Of a stretch of DNA of 64,000 bases, positions 6,401 to 61,800 are shown in pieces. The position numbers were made by a program, and so were the translations under genes. This DNA comes from Dermatophagoides farinae (lineage: Eukaryota; Arthropoda; Arachnida; Sarcoptiformes; Pyroglyphidae): NCBI RefSeq assembly GCF_024713945.1, contig NC_134682.1, positions 4,565,001 to 4,629,000 of the forward strand. The letters are read 5' to 3'. The notes beneath the pieces were generated by a model. It was not told the origin of the DNA, made no database searches, and saw only the letters and a list, made by a program, of their open reading frames with translations. Within the stretch, counting starts at the first letter, position 1. Each line of letters starts with the position of its first letter.

Positions 6401-8740
6401 AATGTAACAACAACAGTAGTAGTGATGTGTGATTTGTAATTTGTCATTATCATTTGTGTGCTGTATTCACCAAAAAAAAAAGTTTCACATTCTTTGCTGT
6501 GTAATTTTTTTTTTGGTGGCTTGATGCTTGGCATGTTTCTAATGATCGTGATCATTTTAATCTTCATATATATTGAATCCGTTTTCATTCGGAAAGATGT
6601 TCTTCACCTGGTATTTGTTAATGATGATGATGATGATCGGATCAATGTCATTGAATTTGGTTTTTCTTCAGGGAATTATTTTTTTTATTGAAATTTTGAT
6701 CATCTATAATCTATAGAAATGTAGACAAAATTGAATCAATTGAAATAACTTAAAACAAAACAAATAACTTACGTTTTCTGCATGTGCGTTGTGCATGGTG
6801 GTGTAGTGTTAATTATTATAAATCATAAACTTTGAACAAAACAAACGAATGAATCATCTTCATCATCATCATTATTGTTATTATGGCCACAATAGGGAGT
6901 CTATCCAATTAGAATGAATGAATGAATCAATTGTATTTGGACAGCAGCAGATTCATCTGTTGTGATTCGATATAAAAACATACATTTGACAAGTTGTTTT
7001 GTTTTGAATTGAATGATGTGTTTTATCTGTGTAGGCGTCCTCTTCATTTGAAAGTAAAGCTGTTTTTTTTCTCGTTGAAAATCCCGATATGTAATAATTG
7101 ATTGATTGATTGTTTCTTTTTCTTGTTTTCATTTTTCAAATTGATAACAACAACAACAGGGTGTCTACACGGATATTGTGTTTCACCATTTCAATGTATT
7201 TGTCAAAGAAATTGGGGTGGAATATTATGCGATCAAGATTTAAACTATTGTGGTACACATGAACCATGTTTGAATGATGGACGTTGTGAAAATATTGCCC
7301 CCGATAATTATAGGTAAAAAAAAATGAAATCACCATTTTCGTTTTCGTTGCATTTCATTATTTTCTTATTAATGTTATAGATGTGTATGCAAAAAAGGCT
7401 TTTCCGGCGTTAATTGTCAGATCGTAGAAGATGCATGTGCCACTTCTCCTTGTTTACATGATGGAACATGTATAACGTTGGCAAATGGAACGGATTTTCG
7501 TTGTATGTGTCGGCCAGGATTTTCCGGTAAACGATGTGAAAATGACCTAAATGAATGTGCATCACAACCTTGTATGAATGGTGCTACTTGTCATGATTTG
7601 GAAAATAATTACCGTTGTACATGTCCAAGTGGTTGGACCGGTGATCGTTGTCAACAGGATGTGGATGAATGTTCAGCACTTGTAACACCTTGTATCCGTG
7701 CCAGTGCTTGCATCAATATCAATGGAAGTTATATCTGTGTATGTGAAAAAGGATTCGAAGGTCTATTCTGCGAAAATGAAGTTGATGATTGTAAACATAA
7801 TCAAATTAATTGCCAAAATGGTGGCTTCTGTATTGATTTAGTCAATGATTTTCGTTGTGTTTGTTCAACCGGTTTCACTGGGCCACGATGTGATCGTATC
7901 GATGAATCGGTTTGTGATCTTCTACCGAATCATGTATGGCGATTGAATGAAACTGGATGTGAAAAAATCTGTGTTTGCCGTAATAATTCACGTGTCGCAT
8001 GTAAATGTCAAGAAGAATCCAAATGTAATCTTAAATTAGATGATGATGATCGAACAAATCTTTCAGAAATTCATGTCGTTTTCGATTCGAATGCAAGTAG
8101 ACATGCATGTAATGCGATACAATCGATACATTCATTACTAACAATCGATACTAATGATGATGATGATGCTGGTGGTGGTGGTGGTGGTGGTGATGAATTC
8201 TGTTGTGAAATTCGAATGTCAACCGATGGTGGTACAATCGTCACCGGTAATGAAGTTATAATACAAGTTAATAAACAATCATCACTGGCTCAATATATAA
8301 CACGAACGATATTTCCACACATATTACATGTGATTGTAAATACCGAAAATATTCGACAATCCGATTGGTCCGTTGTTAATTTATTCATAATACTCGTATT
8401 CACTGCCATCACTGTAACCGGAATATTGATGGCAAAATCTTATTATCGTCGTAAAAAACATGAAGCAGATGCTGAAAATGTTGTCATACATTGTATACAG
8501 AATAATTTAAAACAATCACAACAATCGCCTTCGATGATGATGATGATGATTGGTGGTGGTAATAATCGTCCATTAACACCGCCGAATCAAAAACTTTGCA
8601 ACACTGTTTATTGTGGTGGTAATAATCATAATCAAACAAATATGGATAGTTTTCATCGAACCAAACCAGTATTATCTTATTGTTCCAAATTGATGGTTTC
8701 ATCACCAACGATTTCGAATAAAACTAAAATGATTGATTAG
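1346..8740 (+). CDS. Ser: Notch ligand of the Jagged/Serrate type
   Basis: Transmembrane DSL ligand that activates Notch on neighbouring cells. Coding exons 1346-1693, 4091-4427, 4489-4602, 7160-7313 and 7381-8740 join in phase to 770 aa. The ATG is fixed by an in-frame TAA just before it. Order: signal peptide (hydrophobic stretch ending near residue 48), MNNL domain across exons 1-2, DSL domain at residues 183-226 with six cysteines in the family spacing (C183, C192, C196, C208, C217, C226), seven EGF repeats, a VWC-like cysteine-rich stretch near 494-527, a juxtamembrane cysteine region, a transmembrane helix near 649-670 and a short cytoplasmic tail. The VWC-like and juxtamembrane parts resemble Jagged/Serrate rather than Delta. 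Vertebrate Jagged has about 16 EGF repeats, so this ectodomain is short. An AATAAA lies at 8885-8890. Class is firm; the Serrate-versus-Delta choice is less so. Confidence 0.88.
1694..4090 (+). other. intron 1 of the Notch-ligand gene
   Basis: A 2.4-kb intron from GTAAGT to TTTTTTTAG. It holds a 44-bp GA repeat (3435-3478) and several TTG and GT runs. No coding exon recognised. Confidence 0.8.
3435..3478. repeat. GA dinucleotide microsatellite
   Basis: An almost uninterrupted (GA)n tract of about 44 bp inside intron 1 of the Notch-ligand gene. Confidence 0.97.
4603..7159 (+). other. intron 3 of the Notch-ligand gene
   Basis: A 2.56-kb intron from GTAGGC to AACAACAG, dividing EGF-encoding exons. 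Contents are ATG/CAT, TTG and poly-T runs; no coding exon recognised. Confidence 0.8.
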
Positions 8741-23300: not shown

Positions 23301-25036
23301 TATGTTAATCAATTATAATTGAAATTCATTAGTTATACACACACACACACACACACACACTTGTTTGTGGTGTTTAGTGTGGGTCTTTTTTCGACATTTC
23401 TATCTGTCGTTTTATTTGCTTCATTAATTTTGCGTTCCATTGTGTGTGTCTATGTGTTGTCATAACATCATTGATTTTGGACACATCATGCAACGTCAAA
23501 CATCATCATCAAAACTTTTTTTTTTTTGCTGCAACAAACAAACAAACAAACAAAAAAATATTTTGAAAATGTACAAAATAAAATCAGCGATAATAACATC
23601 ATGATAATAATCATCGATTGAATTGAATCAAAGCAAATCCGATTAGATCAGAGTTAGAAAAAAAAATCCAAGTCAAATCGAATGATATTCGATTTAGAAA
23701 TTTTTTGATCTGAAAGAAAATCCCAAAGAAAATTGAGTTTGCCTCGATCCTGATGATCTTTGCTTCTTTTTTTTGGATCAAAAAAAAAAAGAATGAAAAT
23801 GTTCCAGAAATGAAAATCCAACCAATTTATAATGCAAATCTTGTGAAAGAAAAAAAAATGTTTTTTTTTGCTTGCTATGCAAACAACAAACATGAAAATC
23901 CACATTGTGAATTCGACCACAAAAACGACATCGACAACTACAAAGGTCAAAAAGAAAAAAATTTAAAATTCAGATTTTACACCACAGGGCTTTCCTCAAT
24001 TTGATTTGATTAAATAAATGTTGTCGAAAGAAACCCGTTAAGTTTAAGGTTAATAATTGTTGATGAAAGAAAAAAAAACGAAAATTCATGAATATAAAAG
24101 AAACCCAGACATTTTATTTATTGTTATTGATTTGATTGTGGGGGTGTTTTTTTTTGTGTAAATTCTTATTCCGAATTCTTTTATTGTCATCGTTGTTGTT
24201 GTTGTTGTTGTTGCTGGTTGTAGTTGTTTGATATGGTTGGTATTCATTCAAAGTTGATTTAGTGTTTCATTGTGACTGTCATAATAATAGAGAATTTTTG
24301 TGTGTATGTTTATATGGTTGTAGTGTAGTATAAGTTTCAATATTATTTTCAATCAATATATTCTCTATTTCTCTCTATAATCGATAGCATGGGAATTAAA
24401 TGAATAGAATTTGCTACACACACACACACACACACACAAGCATCAATCGAATCCATGAAAATCGATTTTTTCCAGTTTTCACTCGTTCACACAGAGACAC
24501 ACCAAGAGCGATAGACATCAATCATTCTTACAGGTTCACTACAATTTCTTCTGGACTTTTCTTTGATTATTTTGTTTTGTTAAAAAAATGTACATTCTAT
24601 TTCTTTTTTATAAGGATTCTAATCAATTTTCATTTTTTTTTCTATTTTCTTTCGTTTTGAACATAGGAAAAACTTTTCTGCAAACTAACTGACTAAAGAA
24701 CTAACTTGAGAAACAATCATCCTTTTTTTCAATTTTCTTCTCTATAAAGCCTTGGATTTGATTTTGAAAAATTCTTTTTTTTTTACGACGACGAAGACGA
24801 CGACTATATTCATCATTAGTGTATGTGTGTGTGTGTGTGTGTTCAATTTATCATCAATGATTTGTGCTTAATTGTTTGTTTTTTTTGGTGTTTGTGTTTA
24901 AAAAAAAAATCTCAAAATCATCATCCAAATATAAGTTGTCAACAGTTTGTGATTTTTCTCCGTTTGTTATCATCCTTTTGTGTTTATTGGATGTATGTAT
25001 GAAAGAGCGAGTGGATGTGAACGGTGGATATAGGAA
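14308..25036. other. long repeat-rich region without a supported gene
   Basis: More than 10 kb of AT-rich sequence with many microsatellites. Open frames are short and mostly made of repeat-encoded residues (Asp, His, Met, Phe, Asn). Isolated splice-like pieces occur, such as an exon-like stretch at about 16188-16138 on the minus strand between TTTAG and GTAAGG, but none links to others in phase. It probably contains the promoter and 5' non-coding exon(s) of the glutamate transporter. Confidence 0.5.
23336..23360. repeat. CA dinucleotide microsatellite
   Basis: A (CA)n tract of about 25 bp in the gene-poor region upstream of the transporter. Confidence 0.9.
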
Positions 25037-28000
25037 ATGGAAAACAGTCAGATGGATGCCAAGACGCCTATGTTACGTAGTAATCAAACAAAACCTCATC
25101 AAACAAATCCAACAACCATGCCAACTACCGTACGAATGACACATCCGGAAAGGACTTTGGTGGAAAAGATTTGGGGCTGGTTTGCCGAAAATCTATTGCT
25201 TGTATTGACAATATTATCAGTGATCTGTGGCATTGTGCTAGGATGTTTTATGCGTTACGCAAGCTACGATGATGATTTTGTCATGTTGATCGGTTTCCCT
25301 GGTGAATTATTAATGCGAATGCTCAAAATGTTAATTATACCATTGATAACATCATCAATGATTGCCGGCTTAGCTCAATTGGATGCCAAATCGAGCGGCC
25401 GTATGGGTTCAAGGGCTATTGCCTATTATTTTGGAACAACCCTATTAGCTGCCATTCTCGGTATTGTATTGGTATTATTGATACATCCAGGTAATCCACG
25501 TATCAAACAGGAAGCAATGAAAGCTGTAAAAGATGCCGATACAAAAGTATCAACATTGGATGCAATGTTAGATTTGGTTCGTAATATGTTTCCAGAAAAT
25601 TTGCTACAGGCAGCATTTGCCAATGTAAAAACTGAATTTGTACCCAGTGATCGTATCAATATGACACGTGTACGTGAAAAAGGTCAACAATTAAATTGGG
25701 ATCGTATTTATAATAAAACTGATCCAGCAACAAATGTAACTGATTATTATAAATTAGTTCGTTCATACCCTTATAAAGATGGTTCTAACATCCTTGGTCT
25801 TATTGTTTTTTGCACCGCCTTCGGTATCATTTGTGGTCAATTAGGATCCGAAGCTGAAACAATGATTAGATTTTTTGTTATACTAAACGAAATTGTTATG
25901 CGTTTAGTTGTCATTTGTATGTGGTATTCACCAATCGGCATTGCATCATTAATTATAGCCAAAATATTAGCTATACAAGACATGTATACGATGGCTCAAC
26001 AGCTAGGCCTCTATATGTTGACCGTAATCACTGGTCTATTAATACATGCAATCATTACATTGCCAGGAATCTATTTTATTGTTACAAGGAAAAACCCTTT
26101 AACATTTTTCAAAGGCATGTTACAAGCCTGGGTTACAGCCTTGGGTACAGCATCGTCTGCCGCAACCCTTCCAATCACTTTCCGTTGTCTTGAAGAAAAC
26201 AATCATATCGATAAACGAGTAAGTAGATTTTTTTTTCTTAATTATCATAATAATTTTCATCACAATATTCATAATTCATTTTTCAATATCAAGTGTCCAT
26301 TTAACTTTGACATCATCATTATTCAAATTGATATGGCCTTTTTTTTCTTTCTCAGTTCATATTACTCGATTTTAGCCACAAACACATGTTTAGCATGAGT
26401 CAGTATGTTTGTATGTGTGTGTGTGTCAAGTCAATTGATCAACGTCAAATAAATATGTTATGACGACGACGACGACGACAACGATGATGATGCTAAATGT
26501 ACACATTATATTAGCTTTATACAGGCAATTACATTGTAAAGAAATATTACCACATTTTTTTCCGGATAAACCTTAGTACATTAATTTTCAAAAAAATGAA
26601 AAAAAGTTTTAGCCCTATAGGCAAATCATTTCATTTCATCATCATTTTTTTTCAATTTAGTTCTAATCATCATTGAATTTTTTTTATCTATCCAGAAAAA
26701 AAATGAAAATTTGTCTATTCTTTTCATTTTTTTTTTGCTGCTGTTGTTATTATTTTCTTCTTGATTGATCAAACTAGATATATTTGATCATCATTTATAA
26801 TAAAAATTTATAAATTTGATATTTTCTCGATTGATTTTGTTTTCTTTTCGCTTTTGTCCTTTTGATAATATCAATAATAATAATAATAATAATGATGATG
26901 AGATTTTTTTTCCTCTTTTTCTTTGTTATTGTTGTTGTTGTTGTTTTGGTTGTTCCATACCATCAACAACAACAACAACAACAAAAAATGAAACGATAAG
27001 AAAAAAAAATAAATTTTCAATTGAATAGCTTGTGTGTGTGTGTGTGTGTGTGGGAGTATTATTGTGCGATCTTTGATTCTCATTTTCATTCAATGCCATT
27101 CAATTTATCGTTTAGTTTGAGCTTCATCGAAGATCGATCACGAATCGAATTTTTGTTTCTTTTTTTTTCTTTCTCACTAGCTTGCTGATAATGATGATCA
27201 TAAAAATCGATTCAATCGATCGATCGATTTTATTTTTATTTTTTATTCTTTTTTCTGTGTGTAAATGCTATTTCATTGGGGTTATATGATTCTCTGATGT
27301 CATTCAATTATAGTCAATTGACCGTTTTATTTTTGTTTACGTTATATAGTTACTGCTGTTGTCCATCTCATAAAACCAATACAATAAAACGTCAACCCAA
27401 GTGACCATATAAAAAAAGGATCAAATTACAAAATTCATGAAACAACAACAACAACAACAATGCATAAACATCGGGTCACTACCAAATTATGAACATTATT
27501 CATTTGAGGATATGAAGAGAGAGAAATTTTTTTTCTTTTCTTTTTTTAGCCAAACAAGGTCAAAATAGTCTGTTGTTTTTTTTATTCTGACTTTTAGTTT
27601 ATCCAATGATAATGATCATGGTGATGATGATGATATATCCAACCATCAAACCAGATTTTGATTAGCTTGGATGGTCGGTTTGGTTTCATTCATTCATTCA
27701 TTCATTTTATTTATTTATTTATTCATTTCACCGTTACAGTTGACTGGCTAGTTGTTTTTTTTCGTTATCCAGGTTTTTGTTTATATTAATTCAATTAGTA
27801 GAATTTGAAAATAACAGCTGGCAAAAAATAACAAAAAAAAATCCATTCCATTGTTTTTTTTGTGTGTGACCTGTATGTGTATACATCAAGCACACACATA
27901 GTCTGGTCTATAGATTTTTGTTGTTGTTGTTGTTTATTTTAGATTCATAGAATATTTGCACGCATTTCCTGTCCATTTTCATTTGTTCATTGGTTCCTGT

Positions 28001-45874: not shown

Positions 45875-46798
45875 TATGATTATTGGAGGGAAAAAATTTT
45901 CGTTGATTTTAGTAACAATTTCAGTGGACCAATTTCAACAACAACAACAAAAACTTTTCATATTTTTTACTTATTAATCTATATCTGAATCTGAATGAAT
46001 GATCACATTTCACATACATCACAGTTTTTCAATATATTGAATCACAATTTACAAACAAACACCCAGACAACAACAACAACAACAAAAAACGATGACTATA
46101 AAAGCATCAAGTGCCACTACTCTATCATCATCATCATAACAAAAACAACAAGGATACAATAATCATCGTCGATTGCGTTATCATCATCATCATCATCGTC
46201 GAAAATGGACTAGAAATGGTAGCAACCACCATGGCTACAACTATATAATCAATTGATTGATTTAATCAAGTGAAAAAATAAAATGCATCAATTCCGTTTT
46301 TTTGTTGTTGTTGGTGTTGCCATAATCATCACCAGAAGACAAACAATTAAAGTATAGTTTTTCGCTTTACGATTATCAAATCTACTGATGATTGATTTGT
46401 CAATATATCGTGAGTGAAATTTTTTTTTCTTACCATTGTTGATCACATTTCCTGATTGATAAGATTTGATTTGCTAAAAAAAATTGATTCAAAGCAAATT
46501 TTTTTTTATGATTTTTCCAGATGAAATTCGAAAATTTCTTATCCACTATCGATAGATGGCGCAATATTTTTTATTTTTTTTTTTTTTGTTATGAAAATTT
46601 AAACATTCGAAGGAGAATAGAAAATAATGAAATTTTTGAAAATAATTATTACACAATTATGGATAAATTAATTTGAAAAAAATGAAAATGCTTTAAAAAA
46701 ATGTGGCATATGATCAAAATTATTATTAATCTATTTTTGGGAATTTGTTTTTTATTTTTATTTTTTTTTTTTTTGACAAATTCCGTTTCGTTATCGAA
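45875..46798. other. divergent intergenic region between Cas-like gene and copy 1
   Basis: About 0.9 kb expected to hold promoters for both genes. It contains CAT/CAA repeats and the GATAGATGGCG motif near 46556. No SH3-encoding exon for the Cas-like gene was found here on the minus strand. Confidence 0.55.
46545..46565 (+). promoter_or_regulatory. GATAGATGGCG motif upstream of copy 1
   Basis: CGATAGATGGCGC at 46550-46562 lies about 240 bp before the copy 1 ATG, in the 0.9-kb region between this gene and the divergent Cas-like gene. The core ATGGC is the reverse complement of GCCAT, the known core of Pho/YY1 sites; that reading is inference. Confidence 0.45.
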
Positions 46799-47813
46799 AT
46801 GATACTAGTTCTATTTATTATTATTAAAATTGTGTTGGCTGATGATAAATCAATTATCGTGCATGGTAATAGTACGACCGAATTGGATCGTGTACAATTT
46901 GCATACAAATCTGTCTATGGTATACCGAAAAAATTACTTTGTGATGAATCAATTACTAAACAATTTTATGAATGTGAACGAACGGCACATCATACATGGG
47001 AAATCACCGTTAATGATTATGTAAGTATGATGTTTTTATGGTGTAATAATTCTAAATTATTAACAATTTCTAAATTTATCATAGTTTTATGAAAAATCAA
47101 AGTTTTGCTGTTTCATTTGGCTAACACTTTCTTGTGAAATGGATGTGATTAAAAAATGTAGTGTAGATTATTTGAAGAAACTTGAAATGAGTACCAAACA
47201 ATCATACAAATCAATGTGTGAACGAATCGGTTCTGGACCTAATAGCTACACATGTTTTATGACAAAAGATACAAAAGCAACGATTAATTGGATAATCGCA
47301 ATTTTAATTCTCATATTAACTTTGGCATGTGCATCCTATGGAATTCGAACTTATTGTAACAAAAATGAAGATGTTAAGTAAGTTTTTTTGTGTTTTTGTT
47401 TGTTTGTTTGTTTGACAATTTGAATTAATTCATTAAGCCAATACACTTATTATTACGTAACTGATCCTGATACTGGCTTGCCACTATATTTGGGACCGAT
47501 TCCTAGACTGAAGATCCAAAATGCACCACATAATCCTAAATACCCAATAAACTATGATGAACTTTTATTGAAAACACCACAACGACCACGATTGACATTT
47601 CCAAATTTTGAAACAGACCAAAACGCTATACCATTACCAAATGTTGCAAAAAACGCTACACCATTACCAAATGTTACAAATAACGCTATACCATTACCAA
47701 ATGTTGCAAATAAAAATAATCTTGGCCCTCAAAAACCAAATTTATTGGTAACATCTTTAAAACTGCTTGGCCACGATCTAGTTGAATGGTCTCCCGAATG
47801 GATGTGGAGATAA
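46799..47813 (+). CDS. array copy 1: single-pass membrane protein, family not recognised
   Basis: Exons 46799-47020, 47085-47377 and 47438-47813 join in phase to 296 aa. A signal peptide (about residues 1-14) precedes a small ectodomain with sequon NST, the YKSVYG motif and the family cysteines (LLC, YEC, FCC, SCE, KKC, SMC, TC). A transmembrane helix lies near 141-161. The cytoplasmic tail differs from all other copies: it has three tandem decapeptides of the type NAIPLPNVAN (DNA 47622-47711) and ends WSPEWMWR. An upstream ATG in the same frame is not seen, so 46799 is the likely start. Motif CGATAGATGGCGC lies 240 bp upstream, between this gene and the divergent Cas-like gene. With copy 7 it is the most diverged member. 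No function can be assigned. Confidence 0.78.
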
Positions 47814-48052
47814 TGAAAAATAATAGCACACAAGGAGAGATACATCAACTTTTTTGTAAACATTTCATTTGCAATAAAAATTCAACAACAACAACATGTG
47901 TGTGTGTGTGTTATGATCATGAAATTTTTAAAACGAATAAAGCAAATGGAATAATTTATTACTTTTGTTTAAAATTTTCAATTATTGGAACCTAAAAAAT
48001 CAATAAGTTTAAAAAAATCGTAATCCTAAAAAAAATAAATTTGTTCACTTCC

Positions 48053-48251
48053 CACGATAGATGTCGATATATATAATACAGCAAATGATGAAAACAATAG
48101 AATTTCAATTTGGGCTATAATTTACGAATCGAATATACAAGAATGGCTTGAATAGTAGTGTAAATAAATTCCATGACCAATTTTACGATTCTAATGGTTT
48201 ATTTTTTTTTTAATTTTTTTTTTGGATTCGAAGGATTATTCTGCTCTTCAA
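48053..48251 (+). promoter_or_regulatory. shared upstream block, copy 2
   Basis: Contains a degenerate motif (GATAGATGTCG near 48057-48067), then the shared text GGGCTATAATTTACGAATCG and ATATACAAGAATGGCTT. The last part (CCATGACCAATTTTACGATT) is shared with copies 5 and 6. Probable promoter and 5' untranslated region. Confidence 0.5.
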
Positions 48252-49887
48252 ATGATCGGATTATTGTTTATGAATAATGATGGCAAACAAATCTATTTGA
48301 ATTTTTTGATAGTGGTGATTCTCTTCATGACGATCGTTGTATTGGCTGATGATAAATCAATTATTGTGCGTGGTAATAATGCAACCGAATGGCATTCTAT
48401 ACGATATCCATACAAATCTGTCTATGGTCTATCCAAAAGATTAAAATGTGATGGATCGATTCATGAACGATTTCATGAATGTGAACGATCAGCACACCAT
48501 GCATGGATAATCACCATTAATGATTATGTAAGTTGATTATTCTATAATTTCAAGTTGTTAATGATTGATTTTCAAAGTTTTATGAATCAAAAAAGTTTTG
48601 CTGCTTCATCTGGCAAACACTTGATTGTGAAATTGATGTTGTTGGAGAATGTGATAAAGAATATTCTAAGAAACTCGAAACCATCACCGAAGAATCATAC
48701 AAATCAATGTGTGATCGAGTTGGTTCAGCTCGTGGATCAACATCATGTTGGTTGACACAAGATAGACAAGAAACAATTGCTTGGATAGTCGGAATCATAA
48801 TTTTTATCTTAACGTTGGTCTGTGCATGTTTGGGAATTCGAACTTATCTTAATAAGATTAATGCTGCAAAGTAGGTGCTATTGAATTTTTTTTTTTTTTT
48901 GATCTGAAAATTTCAATTAATTCAACGATACGATTTTATAGGCCTAAATTAGAAATTAGCGAGCCATTTGATTATAGAAAGGAAACGCATTTATTTGTTG
49001 AAAAAAATTATATGGCAGTTGTTGCAGATAAGAAAGCAAGAACACAGAAACATGTCCCGTCGTCTCCAAAACCACCACGAATAAACAAATCATTTTTACA
49101 TCCCGATGGGGTTGGCCCAGTAACTGATTCAGCAACTGTTCCAAAGAATATCTCTTCATCTACATCAAGAACACCGATGGCGATAATGGCCCCACAAGCA
49201 ACAACAACAACAACAACTAGAAAAACTCCCATTCCAGCGCCTAGATTATCAAAAATGAAATTCGGAGGAACACCTGATTTATTTAACCGATCAATTTTAC
49301 ATCCCGATGGGGTTGGCCCAGTAACTGATTCAGCAATTGTTCCAAAGAATATCTCTTCATCTACATCAAGAACACCGATGGCGATAATGGCCCCACAAGC
49401 AACAACAACAACAACAACTAGAAAAACTCCCATTCCAGCGCCTAGATTATCAAAAATGAAATTCGGAGGAACACCTAATTTGCTTAACCAATCAATTTTA
49501 CATTCCGATGGTGCTGGCCCAATAACTGATTCAGCAAGTGTTCCACAGAATATCTCTTCATCTACATCAAGAACACCAATGGCAATAATGGCCCCACAAG
49601 CAACAACAACGACAACTAGAAAAACTCCCATTCCAGCGCCTAGATTATCAAAAATGAAATTCGGAGGAACACCTAATTTGTTTAACCAATCAATTTTACA
49701 TTCCGATTCGGGCCTAATGGATTCACCATTATCAAAAAATATCATTCCTCCCAGAAAATTGACTATAGGGTTGCCAGACGGTGGTTCTATGACGGTACCA
49801 ATACCATCAGAACCACCATCACCAACTAGTCCGTTAAAAGATTTGTGGCCAGACTGGTTGTTTTCCCAGATAGTGCGAAAAATCTGA
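48252..49887 (+). CDS. array copy 2: single-pass membrane protein with repeat-bearing tail
   Basis: Exons 48252-48527, 48578-48870 and 48942-49887 join in phase to 504 aa. An N-terminal hydrophobic segment ending VVLA precedes ADDKS, sequon NAT and RYPYKSVYGL. Exon 2, starting FYESKKFCCFIW, carries the cysteines and a transmembrane helix near residues 159-180, then GIRTYLNK. The tail begins with the family sequence KLEISEPF and contains an SPKPPR site. It then holds three full copies and a partial fourth of a 66-67-residue unit that starts S-F/I-L-H and contains VPKNISSSTSRTP, APQATTTTT and SKMKFGGTP. The units start at residues 240, 307, 374 and 440. It ends in a short proline/serine-rich sequence without the family's C-terminal motif. 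Family not recognised. Confidence 0.82.
49090..49760 (+). repeat. coding tandem repeat, about 200 bp, 3.3 units, in copy 2 tail
   Basis: Units begin at 49090, 49291, 49492 and 49690 (periods 201, 201 and 198 bp), all multiples of three, so the frame is preserved. The third unit is 3 bp shorter, in the run of ACA codons. The units are almost identical in sequence, implying recent expansion or homogenisation. Single related units occur in the tails of copies 3 to 6. Confidence 0.95.
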
Positions 49888-50029
49888 AAAAGTTTCATTT
49901 AGACGTCTGAATTCAAAGTTGTTATTGATACTAATACATTTTAAAATTAAAAATTATCATAAAAAAATGAATCCATGATATTAAAAAAACATTTCTTCAT
50001 TTGACAAATTAAAAAAAAATTTTAAGTTA

Positions 50030-50263
50030 AAGTGAAAACTATTAAAAAGCCACTTTACTCAATAGATGGCATGGTTACATACAGCAAATGTGGAAACAAA
50101 TATATGGATAACAATAGAATTTTTAAATTTTGGGCTTTAATTACGATTGGAATCGAATATACAAGAATGGTTTAAAATGGTGTAAATAAATTTGACCACC
50201 ATTCATTTTTATACGATTATACTGGTCTATTATTCTATTCTTCAAATAACCGGATTATTGCTT
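50030..50263 (+). promoter_or_regulatory. shared upstream block, copy 3
   Basis: Begins AAGTGAAAACTATTAAAAAG, then AATAGATGGCATGG at 50061-50074 (one base changed from the GATAGATGGCG form), GGGCTTTAATTACGATTGG and ATATACAAGAATGG. It ends with CATTCATTTTTATACGATTA, shared only with copy 4. Probable promoter and 5' untranslated region. Confidence 0.5.
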
Positions 50264-51227
50264 ATGGATTGTGATTGCAAGCAAATCTATTTGAATTTTT
50301 TAATAGTGGTGATCTTCATGACAATCGTTACAAAAATTGTATTGGCTGATGATAAATCAATTATTGTGCGTGGTAATTATGCCACCGAATGGCATTCTAT
50401 ACGATATCCATACAAATCTGGCTATGGTCTATCCAATAGATTAAAATGTGATGGATCGATTCATGGACGATTTCAGGAATGTGAACGTTTGGCACATCAT
50501 ACATGGCAAGTGACCATTGATGATTATGTGAGTTGATTATTCTATAATTTCAAGTTATTAACGATTTACTATTTTCTTATTTTCAAAGTTTTATGAATCA
50601 AAAAAGTTTTGCTGCTTCATCTGGCAAACACTTGATTGTGAAATTGGTGTTGCTGGACAATGCGATAAAGAATATTCTAAGAAACTCGAAACCAGCACCG
50701 AAGAATCATACAAATCTATGTGTGATAAAGTCGGTTCAGGTCGTGGATCAACATCATGTTGGTTGACACAAGATAGACAAGAAACAATTGCTTGGATAGT
50801 CGGAATCATAATTTTCATCTTAACATTGGTCTGTGCATGTTTGGGAATTCGAATTTATCTTAATAGTACTGCTAAGTATGTTTTATTAGTTTTTTTCGAT
50901 CTGACAATTTCAATTAATTCATTTATACGATTCTCTAGACCTAAATTAGAAATTAGCGAACCATTCGAAACATTGAATTACAGGAAGGAAGCGCAAGCAT
51001 TTGTTGAGAAAAACTATTGCCGAGTTGTTGGCCACTTAAGATCACAGAAACATGTCTCGCCTCCAAAACCACCACGAAAAACTCGAGGAAACATATCATT
51101 TTTACATCCTGATGGGGGTAGTCCAATAACGGATTCATCAAGTGTTCCAAAGAATATTTCTTTATTGACTGAGACAGAACGATTACAGAGAATTACCCAA
51201 CACTTTGATCCTCTACTAAAAATGTAA
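50264..51227 (+). CDS. array copy 3: single-pass membrane protein with short tail
   Basis: Exons 50264-50527, 50589-50875 and 50939-51227 join in phase to 279 aa. The first ATG used by copies 2, 5 and 6 is ATA here, so translation probably starts at the next ATG (MDCDCKQIYLNF). A hydrophobic signal segment ends at IVLA. The conserved sequon is lost: the site reads NYAT rather than NNAT. The ectodomain cysteines, FCCFIW block and transmembrane helix are intact. The tail is the shortest of the family: KLEISEPF, a PPKPPRK SH3-ligand-like site, one SFLHPDGG unit, then the C-terminal motif TETERLQRITQHFDPLLKM. The donor of intron 2 is GTATGT. Family not recognised. Confidence 0.8.
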
Positions 51228-51430
51228 AGAAGATAATCATTGCTGGTGGGTAGTGTTGATTTGTTCAATGAAAATAAGCATGAAAGAAATGAAAACAAAG
51301 CTATTGAAATTTCCTTATACCTTAGCTTTAGTTTAAAAATAGAAATAAAAAAAATAAAATAAAAAAATGAATTGATGACATTAAAAAAGCAATTTCTTTA
51401 TTTGACAAATTGAAAAAAAAATTTCAGTTT

Positions 51431-51628
51431 AAAGTGAAAACTGTTAGAAAGCCATCTTACTCGATAGATGGCGTCACAAATAGCAAGAAATAGCTAACAA
51501 AATAGAATTTTTCAATTTTTGGGCTTTAATTACGATTGGAATCGAATATACAAGAATGGTTTAAATCGTATATAAATAAATTTGATGGCCATTCATTTTT
51601 ATACGATTATACTGGTCTGGTCTATTCT
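51431..51628 (+). promoter_or_regulatory. shared upstream block, copy 4
   Basis: AAAGTGAAAACTGTTAGAAA, then TCGATAGATGGCGTCAC at 51461-51477, GGGCTTTAATTACGATTGG, ATATACAAGAATGG and a TATAAATAAA near 51572. The last part matches copy 3. Confidence 0.55.
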
Positions 51629-52915
51629 ATGTTTCAAATGACCGGATTATTGTTTGTGAATAATGATGGCAAGCAAATAATTTTAAATTTTTTGATGATG
51701 ATCATATTCATGACGATTGTTGCAAAAATTGTATTGGCTGATGATAAATATAAATCAATTATTGTGCGTGGTAATAATGAAACCGAATGGCATTCTATAC
51801 GATATCCATACAAATCTGTCTATGGTCTATACGAAAGATTAAAATGTGATGGATCAATTCATGAACGATTTCATGAATGTGAACGATCGGCACATCATTC
51901 ATGGGTAATCACCATTGATGATTATGTAAGTTGTATTCGATAATTCCAAGTTAATACTAATTTTTTTTTATGAAACTCGTAGTTTTATAAAACGAAAAAG
52001 TTTTGCTGTTTTATCTGGCAAACACTTGATTGTGAAATTGATGTTGCTGGAGAATGTAATAAAGAATACTCGAAGAAACTTGAAACGAACACTGAACAAT
52101 CATTCAAATCAATGTGTGATGAAGTCGGTTCCGCTCGTGGTTCAACATCATGTTGGTTGACACAAGATAGACAAGAAACAATTGCTTGGATTATCGGAAT
52201 CATAATTTTCATCTTAACTTTGGTCTGTGCATGCCTGGGAATTCGAAGTTATAATAGCAGAACTAAAACAACAAATACTGGAATAGCAAAGTAGGTTCTT
52301 TTGTGTATATTTTTTTTTTTAGTTTTTTTGTTTGAATCAATTCATTGATCCGATTTCTATAGGACTAAATTGGAAATTAGCGAACCATTTAATTACAGAA
52401 AGGAAACGCATTTATTTGTTGGAAAAAACTATTCGCAAGTTGTTGGCGAATTGAAAACAAGAGAACTGAAATATGGTACTCCCCCAATACCACCAGTAAT
52501 AATTCAAGAAAACAAATCATTTTTACATTATGGAGGTGGTCCAATAACGTATTCATCAAAAGTTCTAAAAAATACCCCGTCATCTACATCAAAAACAATA
52601 ATGACAAAACAAGCGGCAACAACAACAACAACAACCACGTCACCACCTAGAACATTGACTTCAGCATTGAAATCTAAAAGAAAACCGAATTTATTAAACA
52701 AATCAATTTTACGTACCAATTCAACATCACCAAGGGTTTTAAAAAATAAAACTACTCCAAGAAAAGTGACGTTTGCAACTGAAAGTGTAATAATACCATC
52801 ATCATCGTCACCAATTCCAACCATAAACCAGCCAAGAACAGCGACAATATTAACATCGTCATTATCGTCATTAAGTTCTTTGGATTATGCTGGATTGCCT
52901 GAGACTAGGATTTAA
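51629..52915 (+). CDS. array copy 4: single-pass membrane protein, C-terminal motif lost
   Basis: Exons 51629-51925, 51983-52290 and 52363-52915 join in phase to 385 aa. The start may instead be 51638, which aligns with the MIGLL start of other copies. The extracellular part carries YKS duplicated near DDKYKS, sequon NET, YPYKSVYGL and the family cysteines, and exon 2 begins FYKTKKFCCFIW. After the transmembrane helix, exon 2 has an extra Arg/Thr/Asn stretch before the splice. The tail has KLEISEPF, a Thr-rich run, PPRTLTSALKSK and a Ser-rich end SLDYAGLPETRI. At the point where copy 5 reads TEAERLQRI, this copy diverges and stops, so the C-terminal motif is missing. Family not recognised. 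Confidence 0.8.
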
Positions 52916-53057
52916 TTATGAATCGAATCGAATAAAAGAATGACTTGGAGTAAATAAATTTAAAATGAAAAAATAAATCTATGATGACAATAAAAAAAAC
53001 ATTTTTTATTTGACGATTGAATTGATTAATTGAAATTGAAAAGAATTTTATTCTTTA

Positions 53058-53292
53058 AAATGAAAACTGTTGGAAAGCCAGCTCACACGATAGATGGCGT
53101 CACATATAGCAAATGTTGAAACAAATAGAGAAATAACTAACAAAATAGAATTTTTCAATTTCGGCTTTAATTACGAAGAGATTGGAATCGAATATACAAG
53201 AATGGCTTAAATAGTGTGAATAAATTCCATGACCAATTTTGCGATTCTAATGGTTTATTTTTTTTGATTCAAGGGATTATTCTGCTCTTCAA
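53058..53292 (+). promoter_or_regulatory. shared upstream block, copy 5
   Basis: AAATGAAAACTGTTGGAAAG, then CGATAGATGGCGTCAC at 53088-53103, GGCTTTAATTACGAAGAG and ATATACAAGAATGGCTT. The last part matches copies 2 and 6. Confidence 0.55.
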
Positions 53293-54600
53293 ATGATCGG
53301 ATTATTGTTTATGAATAATTATGGCAAACAAATCTATTTGAATTTTTTGATGGTGATCATATTCACGACGATCGTTGCAAAAATTGTATTGGCTAATGAT
53401 AAATCATTTATTGTGCATGGTAATAATGCAACCGAATGGTATTCTATACGATATCCATACAAATCCCACTATGGTCTATCCAAAAGATTAAAATGTGATG
53501 GATCGATTCATGAACGATTTCATGAATGTGAACGATCAGCACACCATGCATGGGTAATCACCATTGATCATTATGTAAGTTGATTATGCAATAATTTCAA
53601 GTTATTAACGATTGACTATTTTTATATTTTCAAAGTTTTATGAATCAAAAAAGTTTTGCTGCTTCATCTGGCAAACACTTGATTGTGAAATTGGCGTTTC
53701 TGGAGAATGTGATAAAGAATATTCTAAGAAACTCGAAACCAGCACCGAACAATCATACAAATCAATGTGTGATCGAGTTGGTTCAGCTCGTGGATCAACA
53801 TCATGTTGGTTGACACAAGATAGACAAGAAACAATTTCTTGGATAGTCGGAATCATAATTTTTATCTTAACGTTGGTCTGTGCATGTTTGGGAATTCGAA
53901 CTTATCTTAATAAGATTAATGCTGCAAAGTATGTGCTATTGAATTTTTTTTTTTTTTTGATCAGAAAATTTCAATTAATTCATCGATACGATTTTATAGG
54001 CCTAAATTAGAAATTAGCGAACCATTTTTTTTCAGAAAGGAAACGCATTTATTTGTCGAGAAACACTTTCCGCTAGTTGTTGCCGAATTAAGAGAAAGAG
54101 CACGGAAAGGTATTCCACTTCCAAAACGAAGAACTCGAGGAAACAAAACATTTTTACATCCCAATATGGGTGGCCCAAAAATGGATGCAGCAAGTGTTCC
54201 AAGGAATATCCCTTCATCTACATCAAGAACACCAACTACAGTAATGCCAAAACAAGCAACAACAACAACCACGTTACCACCTAGAACATTGACTTCAGTA
54301 ATGAAATCTAAAGGAAAAACAAATATGTTAAGCCAATCAATTTTACATGCCGATACGGGCCTAACGGGTTCACCATCACCAAGTGTTTCAAGAAATATCA
54401 CTACTCCAAAAATAGTGATTATAGCGGCACCTGAAAGTGTGACAATACCATCACCACCGTCACCAACTCCAACGATTACACCGCCAGGAACACCTACAAT
54501 ATCAACATCATCAATGGGTTCTTTGGATTTTACTGGATTGACTGAGGCAGAACGATTACAGAGAATTGCACAACACATTGATCCTCTACTAAAAATGTAG
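53293..54600 (+). CDS. array copy 5: single-pass membrane protein with conserved C-terminal motif
   Basis: Exons 53293-53574, 53636-53928 and 54000-54600 join in phase to 391 aa. It starts MIGLLFMNNYGK and has a hydrophobic segment ending IVLA, sequon NAT, YPYKSHYGL and all eight ectodomain cysteines. Exon 2 is nearly identical to that of copies 2 and 6. The tail has KLEISEPF with FF in place of the usual tyrosine-containing sequence, one FLHPNMGG unit, Thr/Pro-rich runs and PPRTLTSVMKSKGK. The proline SH3-ligand site is degraded (LPKRRTR). The end is SLDFTGLTEAERLQRIAQHIDPLLKM in outline, matching copy 3. Family not recognised. Confidence 0.82.
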
Positions 54601-54816
54601 ATGATTGCTGGTGGTGGTGTTGATGTGTTCAAAGAAAATAAGAATGTAAGCGGTGAAAACAAAGCTATTGAAATTACCTTATACCTTAGCTTTATTTTAA
54701 AAATAGAAATAAAAAAAAATTAAAATAAAAAAATGAATTGATCACATTAAAAAAGCACAAGCGACATAGACTAGTAGATTTCTTCATTTGACAAATTGAA
54801 AAAAATTTCGTTTAAA

Positions 54817-55022
54817 GTGAAAACTGTTAGAAAGCCATTTTACTCGATAGATGGCGTAACAAATAGCAAGAAATAACTAACAATAGAATTTTTCAATTTT
54901 GACTTTAATTACGATTGGAATCGAATAAAAAAATGGCTTAAATATTGTAAATAAAATCCATGACCAATTTTACGATTCTAATGGTTTATTTTTTTGATTC
55001 AAGGGATTATTCTGCTCTTCAA
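54817..55022 (+). promoter_or_regulatory. shared upstream block, copy 6
   Basis: AAAGTGAAAACTGTTAGAAA, then TCGATAGATGGCGTAAC at 54844-54860, GACTTTAATTACGATTGG and a shortened AATCGAATAAAAAAATGGC. The last part matches copies 2 and 5. Confidence 0.55.
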
Positions 55023-56733
55023 ATGATCGGATTATTGTTTATGAATAATTATGGCAAGCAAATCTATTTGAATTTTTTGATAGTGGTGATCTTCATGACA
55101 ATCGTTACAAAAATTGTATTGGCTGATGATAAATCAATTATTGTGCGTGGTAATAATGCAACAGAATGGCATTCTATACGATATCCATACAAATCTTTCT
55201 ATGGTTTATTCAGATCATCAAAGTGTGATGGATCGATTCATGAACGATTTCATGAATGTGAACGATCGGCACATCATTCATGGGTAATCACCATTGATGA
55301 TTATGTAAGTTGATTATTCTATAATTTCAAGTTGTTAATGATTGATTTTCAAAGTTTTATGAATCAAAAAAGTTTTGCTGTTTCATCTGGCAAACACTTG
55401 ATTGTGAAATTGACGTTTCTGGTGAATGTGATAAAGAATATTCTAAGAAACTCGAAACCAGCACCGAACAATCATACAAATCAATGTGTGATCTAATTGG
55501 TTCAGCTCGGGGGTCAACATCATGTTGGTTGACACAAGATAGACAAGAAACAATTGCTTGGATAGTCGGAATCATAATTTTCATCTTAACGTTGGTCTGT
55601 GCATGCCTGGGAATTCGAAGTTATCTTAATAAGATTAATGTTGCAAAGTATGTGCTATTGAATTTTTTTTTGATCAGAAAATTTCAATTAATTCATTTAA
55701 ACGATTCTATAGACCTAAATTAGAAATTAGCGAACCATTTAGTTTCAGAAAGGAAACGCATTTGTTTGTTGAGAAACACTTTCCGCAAGTTGTTGGCGAA
55801 TTAAGAGCAAGAGCACAGAAACATGTTCCGCCTCCAAAACCACCACGAAAAACTCGAGGAAACATATCATTTTTACATCCCGATGGGGGTGGCCCGATAA
55901 CTGATTCAGAAAGTGTTCCAAAGAATATCCTTTCATCATCTACATCAAGAACACCGATTACAGTAATGCCAAAACAAGCAACAACAACAACCACATCACC
56001 ACCTAGAACATTGACTTCAATAATGAAATCTAAAGGAAAAACAAATATGTTAAACAAATCAATTTTACATTCCGATCCGGGCCTATCGGGTTCACCATCA
56101 CCAAGCGTTATCACTACTCCAAGAAAGGTGGCGTTTGCAGCTGAAAGTGTGACAATACCAACGTCACCAACGTCACTAACTCCAACGATAACCCCGCCAG
56201 AAACACCAACAATATTAACAGGAAATACAAGCCGCACCATAACACCATTTCCATCAACGAATAGTTTAGCTAGCCATGATTCTGAAACCCTGAAGTTGCC
56301 AATATTCGTTGATTATCACTATCCCCATCTCTGGAAAGAATCAGGCCCACCTCTAAGGCCCAAACCGATAAGATTAGCATCTTCGAACTTATTTAGACCA
56401 CCATCACCGTCAACAACAGATACCTCTGCCGAACATACAATTAAAAATTTATCTTCCAATTTCCATATTAGTGATGGTTCATGTTTCAAACCAGTACAAA
56501 AATCAATTATAAAAAAAATTTCATATGAACAACAACATTCAGTTGTCCCCATTGATTTGATCAGCTACAAACCAGAAATGGAATCATCAAAAATTATTGG
56601 AGATATTCAAAAACCATTACCATCACCGACACTGCCAACCTTATCATCAACAGATGTTACAACACCGAATATTACACAAGTCATACAAGAATTAGAAACA
56701 TTGAATAAATTGCAAAATTTTCATGCAACATAG
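55023..56733 (+). CDS. array copy 6: single-pass membrane protein with the longest tail
   Basis: Exons 55023-55304, 55355-55647 and 55713-56733 join in phase to 531 aa. An in-frame ATG at 54960 could add 21 residues, but 55023 matches the start used by copies 2 and 5. It has a signal segment, sequon NAT, YPYKSFYGL, the FCCFIW exon and the transmembrane helix. The tail contains KLEISEPF, PPKPPRKTR, one SFLHPDGGG unit and PPRTLTSIMKSKGK. It then extends about 170 residues into sequence absent from other copies (for example LPIFVDYHYPHLWKES and PPLRPKP), ending LNKLQNFHAT. The C-terminal LLKM motif is missing, so the end may have been replaced or read past. Family not recognised. Confidence 0.8.
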
Positions 56734-56928
56734 TAATAATAATAATAATAGAATTTATTTATTATAAAAATTCGAATCACAACAACAAATTATTTACAGA
56801 ATAAAACAAGCTAAATAAATTGATTATATTAAATTCCAATCAAATCAATCAATAATGGTATTGATTATTGTTTATTAAAAAAACAATCCGTTTATGAAAT
56901 GAAATTTGTTTCCAAATATTTTTGTTTC

Positions 56929-56952
56929 AAAAAAAAAAAAAAAAAAAAAAAA
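56929..56952. repeat. poly-A tract before copy 7
   Basis: Twenty-four consecutive A, ending 6 bp before the copy 7 ATG. No GATAGATGGCG block is present upstream of this copy. Confidence 0.9.
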
Positions 56953-56958
56953 TAAAAA

Positions 56959-58188
56959 ATGGGCATCACAATACATATTTCATCGAATGATGATTATCTT
57001 CAATCAATATGGCCATTGATAATGTTTTATAAAAAAAATGCTAAAAATGTGGATAAATTATTTATATTGAATAAACACCGTAATCAATTGAATGATACGG
57101 AATTATTATATACATTACGTTATCCATATAAATCTGTTTATGGTCTATCCAATACATTGAATTGTAGCCAATCAATATGGAAACGATTTTATGATTGTGA
57201 ACGATCATCACATCAGCTATGGCGGATACATATTGAACGTTATGTAAGTTTTTTTTTTTGTTTGTTTACTTTTATATTTTGTTTTGAATTTATTGACTTT
57301 TGATAATTTTCCACAAACACACACACACGGACAATAATAATATAGTTTTATGCGACAAAAGAATTTTGCTGTTTCATATGGAATACATTGGAATGTGAAA
57401 TGAATGTTGCCGCTGAATGTAATGTTGAATATTCACGTAAATTGAAAAATAATACATTTGAATCATTTGAAAAGATTTGTAATAAAATTTATTGTGGTTA
57501 TAATAGTTTTGCTTGTTGGTTTTCACCAGATAAACAAGAAACATATAGAATTGTTGCCATTATCGGTGTTTTTATATTGGGCATCTGTTGTACAATTTGT
57601 GGAATGATTCAATGCCGTAATTCTCCGCATACAGGATTGAAAATTACATTTAAAAAACCTCCACCTGATATTAAAAATTTAGAGAATAAGAATAATAATA
57701 CAACAACAATAAAACAACTTACAGTTAAACCGAAAATTAAAAATGTAAAACCAAAAGAGATAATAACAACAACGATAATTTCAACGAAAACAACAACAAC
57801 ATCAAAGATACCCACCATAAGAAAGTCAAAACAATCACCAATACTAAATGGCGATGATAGTATTGGTGGTGCAACAAAAAATATTCCATTCTCTAATCAA
57901 TCGTTACCGAATCAAGAATCCAAAACATTTAAAACACTAAAAAATCTTCCAAAACTTGTTGATTTTATAACACCGCCTACACAAACGACAAAAGTAGTAC
58001 ATGATGATCTTTTATCAATGTATTCATCGGGATCACCATCACCAGAAAACTCAATGTTACCACCACCACCACCACTGGAAACACCATTGAATTTATTATC
58101 ACCATTAAGTGATACATCAGATATGACAGCATTGATTGAAACAGATCAAATGCAACAAATGATACTACAATTTGATCCAATAAATTGA
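56959..58188 (+). CDS. array copy 7: diverged member with two coding exons
   Basis: Exons 56959-57243 and 57346-58188 join in phase to 375 aa. Exon 2 runs straight from the FCCFIW block through the membrane helix into the tail, so the second intron of the other copies is absent. The N-terminus lacks a clear signal peptide; before RYPYKSVYGL it is charged, with only WPLIMF hydrophobic. Sequon NDT keeps the family position. The ectodomain cysteines are conserved with one extra (YCGY). The helix contains CCTICG. The tail is Lys/Thr-rich, then proline-rich, ending LIETDQMQQMILQFDPIN, a diverged form of the C-terminal motif of copies 3 and 5. An upstream exon could supply a signal peptide. Family not recognised. 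Confidence 0.75.
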
Positions 58189-58800: not shown

Positions 58801-61800
58801 TCAATTTGATTCATTTCGATCATTTTGATCAACATGCTGATAGCCTTTATCTCGTTTAAAGAAACCAGTCTAATAATAAATAGAAAATCAACAAATTGAA
58901 AATGTTTCACATAAAAGTTAGTACATATCTTACCTTGCATAGTACACAAATAATTATTGATAGAATAATTAATCCAATAATAATGGCCAATAAATACCAC
59001 CACCAACTTGCTTGTGGTATTTTATGTATCACATCTGGATAGGCATGGGTTTCAATCTAAATCAAACGGGGAAAAAAATATTAATAAGATATTTTCAATT
59101 TTTTTTTCATAACACTAACCATAAAACTATCATCACGTTCATCCTGTATTATATTATATAATGGATTCAATTGAATACGTCCTTTTGATTGTATGGTAAC
59201 ATGATGATAATGAGAAAAATCTTCAATAAATGTTGCATTCCATAATCGTGAACGGACACTGATAATCTTTGAATGAACAAAAAAGAAATTTAAAAAGATT
59301 AAAATTATAATATAAATTGAAAATTTTTTTTTTTTTTGAAAGAAAAACTTACAGCTGTACGATTAGCATCAATATGTGAGATCCAGCATCGAATCTTTAC
59401 ACAACGTGCACCAGAACCACACGTTAAATGTGCAATATTATGTGTATGGCCATCTTTATCACGAATTTGTTGTGTATCAACATTACGACGACGTCTTCGT
59501 CTTCGTTTGTCCGTATCATCTTTGACACTTTCAAAGTTTTTCGGATTTACATATCGAGAATCCAGATCACAATAACCAACCTGGTTGCTAACACTTGGTT
59601 TGGACAAAATATACAGAATCCATTTACCAAATTCACGACCACTATCAATTTGATATGGCCAATCAATGAGAACGGCTACATCTCTGGCACGTAATGGTCC
59701 CTTATTGGTAACAATATATCGATGAATAACTTTTTCACCAATTTCATCTTCAAATCTCATGGCTGCTTCACCACGAATTTCACCACCAAAATGAACTTCT
59801 TTTTCCACCGAAACACCGGTCAATTCTAATTCAGCACGTCGTTGTATTTCGGTATAGAATTCAGCCTTATTATCCAAACCAGATATATCATTCGAAGATC
59901 TAAAAAAATGAAATTAATATAACTAGTTTATAAATCAAGAAAAAAAATTATCAACATACGTTGAAACAGCAACACGAATGAAAAATTCATGTTCACGATC
60001 TTCAATATTATAGCTATTGAAACGAAGCTGAAAATCGGTTCGTCCCTTATTGAATGGATTACCTATCTCGCAGCGGACATGATTTTTGTATGGAACACAA
60101 TCCACTTGATCATCGGTAATTTTACGGCCAACATAACTTATATTTGGTGAATGATCAATAATAATCGCTGTATCATAGGCTGGTTCACCACGATTCGATA
60201 AGCTAATATTCATGACAATATTATCATCATCCAATATCATTGTATAATTATTTCGTTCTTTTTTCATTGCACGTAATAATTCAGCTTTCAATAATAAATT
60301 ACTATCACAAACATCATCAAGTCCACATTCTTTATTGAATTTTGCATAGAATATACGTTGTGCTTCTTGTTGATCCAATATTGGATATTCATTTATATCT
60401 GGTAATGGATCACCTTCATGTGGTAATTCTGGTTTTGTTTGTTTCAATGAATATGATAATTTAAATGCAATTTTATTTTGTATATCTTGTTTTTCTTTCA
60501 GATAAATCAATTCTTTTGTACAATATTCACGTGTATAACCATAATCTATGAATGAATGAATGAAAAAAAATGGTTTAATCGAGACAAAACATGAAAACAA
60601 AACAAAACAAACCTAATGAAATGGTCTTTTCAACAATGTTTGGTGCATTTTCCAATGAATTTCGAAATATTACACGATAATATTTCTGTGTTCCTGTGTT
60701 TGTTTGTTGTTTGAAATCAATTAGATTCAATGCAAATGAATTAAAATTTTCAAAATCATACCTGTGAATGTTTCAGCTTCAATACGATAACGTAATGCAA
60801 ATTTTGACAATGAATTCATAGCACTACTTAAATCAGTGAATTGAAAACATGGTTTCACGGTAAAACATGGTAGTTTACTAGATGGATCTTCTGGACATCC
60901 ATTTGAATTCGGATCGATTTGTGTCATATTATTTTGTACAAATGTTTTAATATGTATAATTGGTCGTGATCTCAGCAATACGATAGCATCACTTTCATAT
61001 GCACCGATAAGTAAATCTGGATATGAATTACGATCTAAATCAAGATTACCAGATAATGAATAACCAAATGTTCGTATCTGATTCAATGGTGATGGTAATT
61101 CAGCTGCATTAATCACTTGTGATGGTTCCGTTTTCAAACCATTTTGACTGCCAGAATAAATATAAACAATACCATTACCATCATATGGTGCACCAATAGC
61201 TAAATCTTCAAAATTATCACGATTAAGATCACCAGCATTAGCTAGAGCAAAACCAAAACGTGATTCAAGTTTTCCAGTCAATCGAATGCGTTTATGGAAT
61301 GCACCAATACGAAGATCTTTTTCAAGATAAACATAAACAGCACCACCATCATTTCCATCATAATAGAATGGTGCACCAATAGCCAGATCTGAATGTCTAC
61401 GAATAAATAGAATGAATCAATTAATTAATCGATTAATTAATGAAAAAAAAAATCAAAAACTTACTTATCACCATCACAATCAAGACTAGCCATTGAATAA
61501 CCGAATGATGAACCAAATTGTTCACCATGCAATCGTCCACGTATATCAAATTCAATACGGCCAGAATCTTTACTATAGAATATTACTTCACCAGTACCAT
61601 TGGAACGTGGTGCACCAGTTGCAATAATAATTTTATCACCCAAAAAATCACCACTTGCTACGCTCATACCAAGATAACTATATTTATCTACAGGTGATTT
61701 ACCTTCAATCACTGGTCCCATATACCAGGTTTTATCATCTTTTATACTATAACTGTTTACATCATAATGATTTAATCATCAAATTCGATAAACAGAAAAA

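Follow-up and report, generated by a model that had tools for sequence, protein, structure and literature searches.

Two expanded families of orphan membrane proteins have been described in Dermatophagoides pteronyssinus, the sister species of the mite Dermatophagoides farinae. According to that report (PMC12105342), proteins of the '4BetaP' family carry an N-terminal hydrophobic segment, an extracellular domain reported to be a four-bladed beta-propeller, one or more membrane helices, and a variable, disordered cytoplasmic tail. The TspL (tetraspanin-like) proteins of the same report (PMC12105342) have four membrane helices without a large loop, and their orthologs are reported there in sarcoptiform mites only. 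Here we analyse a 64-kb stretch of the D. farinae genome (contig C6, bases 4,565,001-4,629,000; the window), in which seven related genes lie head to tail on the plus strand at positions 46799-58188. A group-5/21 allergen gene of this genome matches the solved Der f 21 of D. farinae, the American house dust mite, at 112 of 113 aligned residues, with a difference at the first one. This array resembles the 4BetaP family as a large expansion of an orphan mite family with extracellular domain, membrane helix and variable disordered cytoplasmic tail, and the TspL family as an expanded membrane family. However, exon 2 of the array genes is modelled as helices with conserved cysteines and not as a propeller, and in contrast to TspL there is one membrane helix, which is combined with a cysteine-rich ectodomain.

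Gene models were rebuilt directly from the window sequence (Table 1). They bear out what an initial annotation, made from the letters of the window, had proposed: seven paralogs with starts spaced by 1.4-2.0 kb, and a common three-exon structure with common splice phases in copies 1-6. Intron 1 (50-102 bp) is a GT-AG intron in phase 0 in all seven copies, while intron 2 is in phase 2 in copies 1-6 and is missing from copy 7, which has two exons. Exon 1 of each copy encodes two cysteines and exon 2 six invariant ones, all of them in the ectodomain, which is followed by a single hydrophobic stretch of 19 residues (mean hydropathy 2.43-2.97) and by a tail of 104-350 residues. The proposed eight-cysteine ectodomain and single transmembrane helix were thus recovered in all seven copies. 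When exon 2 of copy 6 was used as query, the other six copies were matched with E-values from 8.5e-22 to 9.1e-60, which excludes chance resemblance. An assembly artefact, the doubt raised in the initial annotation, is unlikely because the ectodomains of copies 2-6 have diverged at synonymous sites (dS 0.03-0.29), because their tails differ and because related genes occur elsewhere in the genome.

An eight-cysteine family in the D. farinae genome

The stronger finding is not the array but the unnamed eight-cysteine family behind it. Protein queries were searched against the species' own genome (62,435,336 bases, 22 contigs) and 20 genes were found in addition to the seven array copies, all of the type with a PYKxxYG motif. 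The local expansion of a membrane-protein family is thereby supported, but the family exceeds the seven copies: at least 27 genes on three contigs (C4, C6 and C8) have a common exon-1/exon-2 module. In all 27 genes, a phase-0 GT-AG intron occurs at the place of array intron 1, between the second cysteine and FCCF; for the 20 outside genes the script sought in-frame GT and AG sites, so that this demonstrates the existence of such sites at the expected place and is no blind splice prediction. In the alignment of the 27 genes, the second cysteine, the CC pair and the next two cysteines are found throughout, and the last two in 26 genes. For the exception, L014, these two cysteines stand in a putative further exon. 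The first cysteine falls into one alignment column in 16 genes, and the remaining 11 have a cysteine which, by eye, is a few residues off. The best 19-residue membrane window reaches at least 1.6, the usual hydropathy threshold, in 23 of the 27 genes. Tails have at most 54 residues in the cluster at C4:547-551 kb, are proline-rich and repetitive at C6:4.80 Mb and C4:560 kb, and, in all but one of the six C8 genes, extend over about 340-780 residues.

Several members of the family show individual features. The pair at C6:4.80 Mb (L009), whose two genes are the array's closest outside relatives, has tails that are built of tandem repeats of about 49 and about 23 residues. Two genes on contig C4, L017 (C4:4952055) and L018 (C4:1142389), are nearly alike (97% and 96% to one query) and are located 3.8 Mb apart. 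In L016 (C8:1715065), the tail resumes in another frame beyond two stops, which may reflect an intron or a broken gene. A search match at C14:439482 (L032, E 2.3e-4) was dropped, as we saw no 60-residue open frame there in which CC precedes F, Y, L, I, V or M.

Twelve further genes (L031, L033-L043), located on contigs C1, C3, C4, C5, C6, C7, C8 and C10, have a pattern of the type C..C, CC..W, C, C, C, C. They were reached with divergent queries, some at E-values as weak as 0.28, and because such genes were recognised by their pattern, this set carries a selection risk. Most of them resemble the array in their cysteine pattern and most have a C-terminal hydrophobic stretch, but they lack the PYKxxYG motif (L031 has YPYK without YG). 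A comparison of 15 family members with five divergent genes by hhalign gave a probability of 97.4 and an E-value of 1.3e-11, and their cysteines align. The alignment includes nine of the twelve genes (L035, L039 and L043 were excluded as their reading is incomplete or split), and here seven of the eight cysteine columns are filled in all nine genes and one is filled in eight. There are exceptions to the pattern: L043 is without the fifth cysteine, L035 could be read only through the sixth, and L034 has no membrane helix in the frame read. An extra gene lies beside L038 (C1:6176388, E 1.5e-11), and weak matches occur at C6:4709933, C9:1503260, C6:1934635 and C6:1928759 (E 0.003-0.47), at C1:4080518 (E 0.15) and at C2:3440543 (E 0.70). 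Together, family and divergent genes number about 40, the search counts being lower bounds. The L031 locus (C4:76-82 kb) consists of two adjoining divergent CC..W genes. The first (frame 142-900) is without one cysteine; in the second, the region that is elsewhere split by a phase-0 intron reads through as a single open frame, which contains a run of serines.

In agreement with the initial annotation, which recognised no known domain, Pfam, PDB and Foldseek searches returned no significant match to a well-described family. With Pfam, nothing exceeded the cut-off for three array proteins, 15 family members, two long-tailed relatives and six divergent relatives. This blank is informative, as the same library names five of the six other open frames of the window (EGF, glutamate-transporter, integrin-alpha). 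A profile search of PDB gave one match at E 0.5 and a second search, by sequence, gave none. Two Pfam candidates below the cut-off were rejected. DUF4730 (E 0.0069; 17.1 bits, cut-off 27) is confined to the membrane helix, and the weak tetraspanin match obtained with the first gene of L031 (E 0.00015; 21.9 bits, cut-off 32.1) starts at the membrane helix. Tetraspanins have four membrane helices, whereas the array copies have a signal segment and a single membrane helix. Viral contigs and prokaryote genomes were each searched with one short back-translated pattern, and none of the 75 and 119 matches could be confirmed as a relative, which makes this a weak negative. Among the papers listed by literature searches, which cover subscription papers thinly, none describes the eight-cysteine family.

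Structure prediction was run on the exon-2 half of the ectodomain and yielded helices only. The AlphaFold2 model, based on the aligned exon 2 of the seven window copies, contains three helices (residues 5-25, 27-48 and 61-96, with the membrane helix in the third) and a short turn at 55-58; the best model has a mean predicted local distance difference test score (pLDDT) of 79.6. A Foldseek search of PDB with this model, which represents half of the ectodomain plus the membrane helix, gave four matches with E-values of 4.4-9.5, which we take as noise. RAMP2 has a small, helical, disulfide-containing ectodomain and is a single-pass protein. Its ectodomain (PDB 2xvt and 3aqe) was matched at E 6.9 and 9.5, which is not significant and, based on half an ectodomain, is to be seen as a lead only.

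Predicted topology and the variable tail

The signal segment had been assigned to all copies except copy 7, and a crude hydropathy measure agrees with this: the best 12-residue value is 0.99 in copy 7, compared to at least 1.82 in the other 26 genes, where for the 20 outside genes the whole open exon-1 frame was scanned, including residues before the start codon. The net charge is more positive on the tail side of the helix in 22 of the 27 genes, and at least one N-glycosylation sequon is present in the ectodomain of 20. Signal segment, membrane helix, net charge and ectodomain sequons together point to a type I topology. The variable tail of the array copies is thus predicted, and most likely, to be cytoplasmic.

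This has consequences for the proposed function. From the variability of the tails, a role in recognition or host interaction had been suggested, and this is not supported: inward-facing tails weaken the argument, and in copies 2-6 it is the ectodomain which is more constrained. D. farinae is a free-living house dust mite, and hence the term 'host interaction' has no obvious meaning here.

The tails had also been called rich in serine, threonine and proline. This applies to copies 2 and 4-7, where these residues make up 35-39% of the tail, and less so to copy 3 (26%) and copy 1 (23%). The final residues, about 20, are similar among copies 3, 5 and 7 and a gene of the C6:4.80 Mb pair, 180 kb away. 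We compared nine tail ends in all 36 pairs, and in ten pairs at most 50 of 1000 shuffles scored as high. These ten include the six pairs among the four tail ends that have the motif in common, for which the score was reached by 0-2 of 1000 shuffles. The other four are copies 5 and 4 (0 shuffles; the similarity is in the stretch ahead of the motif), copy 6 and L011 (0), copy 4 and L011 (8), and L009a and copy 6 (16). As a genome query, the copy 5 motif matched only copy 5 itself and copy 3; this search is insensitive, as it misses copy 7.

Evolution of the array and its interpretation

A tree was computed for 36 rows, in which 15 of 33 inner branches are open. One clade (98/94) unites the array with the C6:4.80 Mb pair; within it copy 7 branches first, and copy 1 groups with that pair (92/92, not starred). 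As this clade includes a pair that is 180 kb distant, the array is not simply a set of seven local copies.

The ratio of nonsynonymous to synonymous divergence (dN/dS) was obtained with our own script as simple Nei-Gojobori estimates without a significance test. Among copies 2-6, it is 0.22-0.56 for the ectodomain in nine of ten pairs, 0-0.15 for the membrane helix in nine of ten pairs where it is defined, and 0.61-1.38 for the tail in the ten pairs. When copy 7 is compared to the other six copies, ectodomain values are 0.40-0.51. As judged from these sequence comparisons, the conserved part of copies 2-6 is the ectodomain with the membrane helix, and the part that changes fast is the predicted inner tail. 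Between copies 2 and 5, identity is 98% in exon 2, 96% in intron 2 and 91% in exon 1, compared to 71-72% in exon 3. This contrast indicates gene conversion, with unequal exchange as another possibility. Between copy 1 and copies 2-6, DNA identity is 72-78% in exons 1-2, 67-84% in the introns and 44-58% in the upstream region and in exon 3.

On balance, though with some reserve, we favour the interpretation that the array codes for type I surface proteins whose ectodomain is helical and probably has four disulfides; the genes would be tandem duplicates from an older family and are probably subject to gene conversion. Each protein would start with a signal segment, which only copy 7 does not show clearly, and continue with an eight-cysteine ectodomain (about 115 residues), a single membrane helix and a probably disordered cytoplasmic tail. 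The eight cysteines may form four disulfides which clamp a small helical bundle, the exon-2 half being predicted as helical; disulfides and bundle are proposed conditionally because the model covers this half of an ectodomain that is split by an intron. As the most likely mechanism, the ectodomain would bind a conserved partner, which may be located on the cell itself, on its neighbour or in a lumen. It seems that the tail could act mainly via its short C-terminal motif, as present in copies 3, 5 and 7 and in the gene 180 kb away, while the preceding stretch would be free to vary. The array would have grown by tandem duplication from the pre-existing family, and probable gene conversion would keep copies 2-6 similar in exon 2 and in the introns close to it, whereas their tails drift. 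The array also illustrates well how duplication with probable gene conversion can preserve similarity in one part of a protein as the rest diverges.

A wider proposal is made more tentatively, with confidence that falls a little short of even. The ectodomain may be an undescribed ancient extracellular domain and the hallmark of one of the mite's larger cell-surface families, with about 40 receptor-like proteins encoded on at least eight contigs and tails that range from hardly any residues to more than 700. The window may carry a young branch that continues to duplicate and in which conversion probably homogenises the outside part, the inside part being free to change. Proteins of the CC..W kind may also occur in other arthropods. 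House dust mites rank among the main sources of inhaled allergens, yet many of their cell-surface proteins are without a name. In the description of the mite cell surface, a family of at least 27, perhaps about 40, proteins with a conserved cysteine scaffold and without a domain model represents a sizeable blind spot.

Several observations weigh against the favoured interpretation. Membrane windows remain below the threshold in four family genes (L010_548292 and L020, both 1.37; L015_1712030, 1.49; L010_547467, 0.17), and the count of lysine and arginine is higher on the inside in only 16 of 27 genes and is reversed in five. The exon-2 model has a predicted template modelling score (pTM) of 0.48, and two of the five models scored 54-55. 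With respect to selection, the ectodomain dN/dS is 1.82 for copies 2 and 5 (dS 0.028), and it is 0.84-1.25 between copy 1 and copies 2-6, so that constraint is not seen there. The C-terminal motif is absent from copies 1, 2 and 4 and is weak in copy 6, where the best pair with the motif-bearing gene 180 kb away is equalled by 16 of 1000 shuffles. Finally, eight known linear signalling motifs showed no consistent enrichment in nine tails compared to shuffles. A signalling tail was dropped as a candidate, because only two isolated counts stand out among 72 uncorrected tests (SH3 class II in copy 3, 2 against 0.1; EVH1 in copy 7, 1 against 0.0, p 0.04).

One alternative concerns the site of action and is compatible with the type I architecture: the array may represent a family of male reproductive (sperm or seminal) membrane proteins. 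In the D. pteronyssinus study (PMC12105342), male bias is found for 16 of the 23 tetraspanin-like genes and for at least 119 4BetaP genes. Tandem growth together with fast-changing tails fits such families. With two male-biased orphan membrane families in the sister species, we rank a role in male reproduction first among the possible tissues and give it a chance of about one in three. It is, however, an analogy only, as the array differs in layout or fold from both published families, and the constrained ectodomain of copies 2-6 argues against it. Sex- and stage-specific reads exist for D. pteronyssinus (PMC12105342).

We consider it unlikely that the genes form an immune or recognition family which diversifies against microbes or other partners. 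The tandem arrangement would fit such a role, as would the ectodomain dN/dS values near 1 when copy 1 is compared to copies 2-6, but in copies 2-6 the exposed part is more conserved, the variation resides in the predicted cytoplasmic tail, and Pfam scans revealed no immune domain. That some copies are decaying pseudogenes or assembly duplicates is very unlikely. Copies 1, 2 and 4 are without the C-terminal motif, copy 7 is without a clear signal segment, and the tail dN/dS is near 1 in several pairs; nevertheless, all seven copies have open frames and GT-AG introns, the membrane helix dN/dS is far below 1 in copies 2-6, and copy 7 has the low ectodomain ratio given above. Membership of the array genes in the 4BetaP family is highly improbable despite the layout that the two have in common, since the exon-2 half is modelled with helices and no strands and about 115 residues are few for four propeller blades.

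Array features and surroundings

Table 1. Coordinates of the array genes, their parts, and related features. Positions are those of the window unless a contig is given; the range of each copy begins with its start codon, and protein lengths are predicted.
Feature	Position	Strand	Details
Copy 1, 296 aa	46799..47813	+	exons 46799-47020, 47085-47377, 47438-47813
Copy 2, 504 aa	48252..49887	+	exons 48252-48527, 48578-48870, 48942-49887; 201-bp tandem repeat in tail
Copy 3, 279 aa	50264..51227	+	exons 50264-50527, 50589-50875, 50939-51227; short tail with C-terminal motif
Copy 4, 382 aa	51638..52915	+	exons 51638-51925, 51983-52290, 52363-52915; tail stops where C-terminal motif would start
Copy 5, 391 aa	53293..54600	+	exons 53293-53574, 53636-53928, 54000-54600
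Copy 6, 531 aa	55023..56733	+	exons 55023-55304, 55355-55647, 55713-56733; longest tail of the array
Copy 7, 375 aa	56959..58188	+	exons 56959-57243, 57346-58188; no clear signal segment; most divergent copy
Copy 6 exon 2, module reference	55355..55647	+	FCCF..W, six conserved cysteines, then membrane helix; modelled as helices
Exon 2 of other copies	47085-47377, 48578-48870, 50589-50875, 51983-52290, 53636-53928; copy 7 from 57346	+	
Tandem repeat, 30 bp	47622..47713	+	3.1 copies; within copy 1 tail
Tandem repeat, 201 bp	49084..49707	+	3.1 copies, 95% match; within predicted cytoplasmic tail of copy 2
C-terminal motif, copy 3	51165..51224	+	LTETERLQRITQHFDPLLKM
C-terminal motif, copy 5	54538..54597	+	LTEAERLQRIAQHIDPLLKM
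C-terminal motif, copy 7	58120..58185	+	DMTALIETDQMQQMILQFDPIN
ATAGATGGCG	46552..46561	+	247 bp upstream of copy 1 start
Family genes outside array, C6	two at 4.80 Mb (C6:4798408, C6:4800657), one at 3.23 Mb		the two at 4.80 Mb: L009
Family genes outside array, C4	five at 547-551 kb; others at 560 kb, 1.14, 1.48, 1.51, 3.66, 4.95 Mb		
Family genes outside array, C8			six genes
EGF-repeat protein	7373-8737		
Glutamate-transporter-like gene	25034-26395		
Integrin alpha gene	59308-61416	-	Pfam

The word ATAGATGGCG occurs, with 0-1 mismatch, also at 48057, 50062, 51464, 53090 and 54847, which places it 174-203 bp ahead of the start predicted for each of copies 2-6. Genome-wide, it has 397 exact occurrences compared to 20 for the reversed word. 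This excess characterises it as a general over-represented motif, which is perhaps regulatory. Directly downstream of the array lies the integrin alpha gene, and farther upstream in the window are the genes for the EGF-repeat protein and the glutamate-transporter-like protein.

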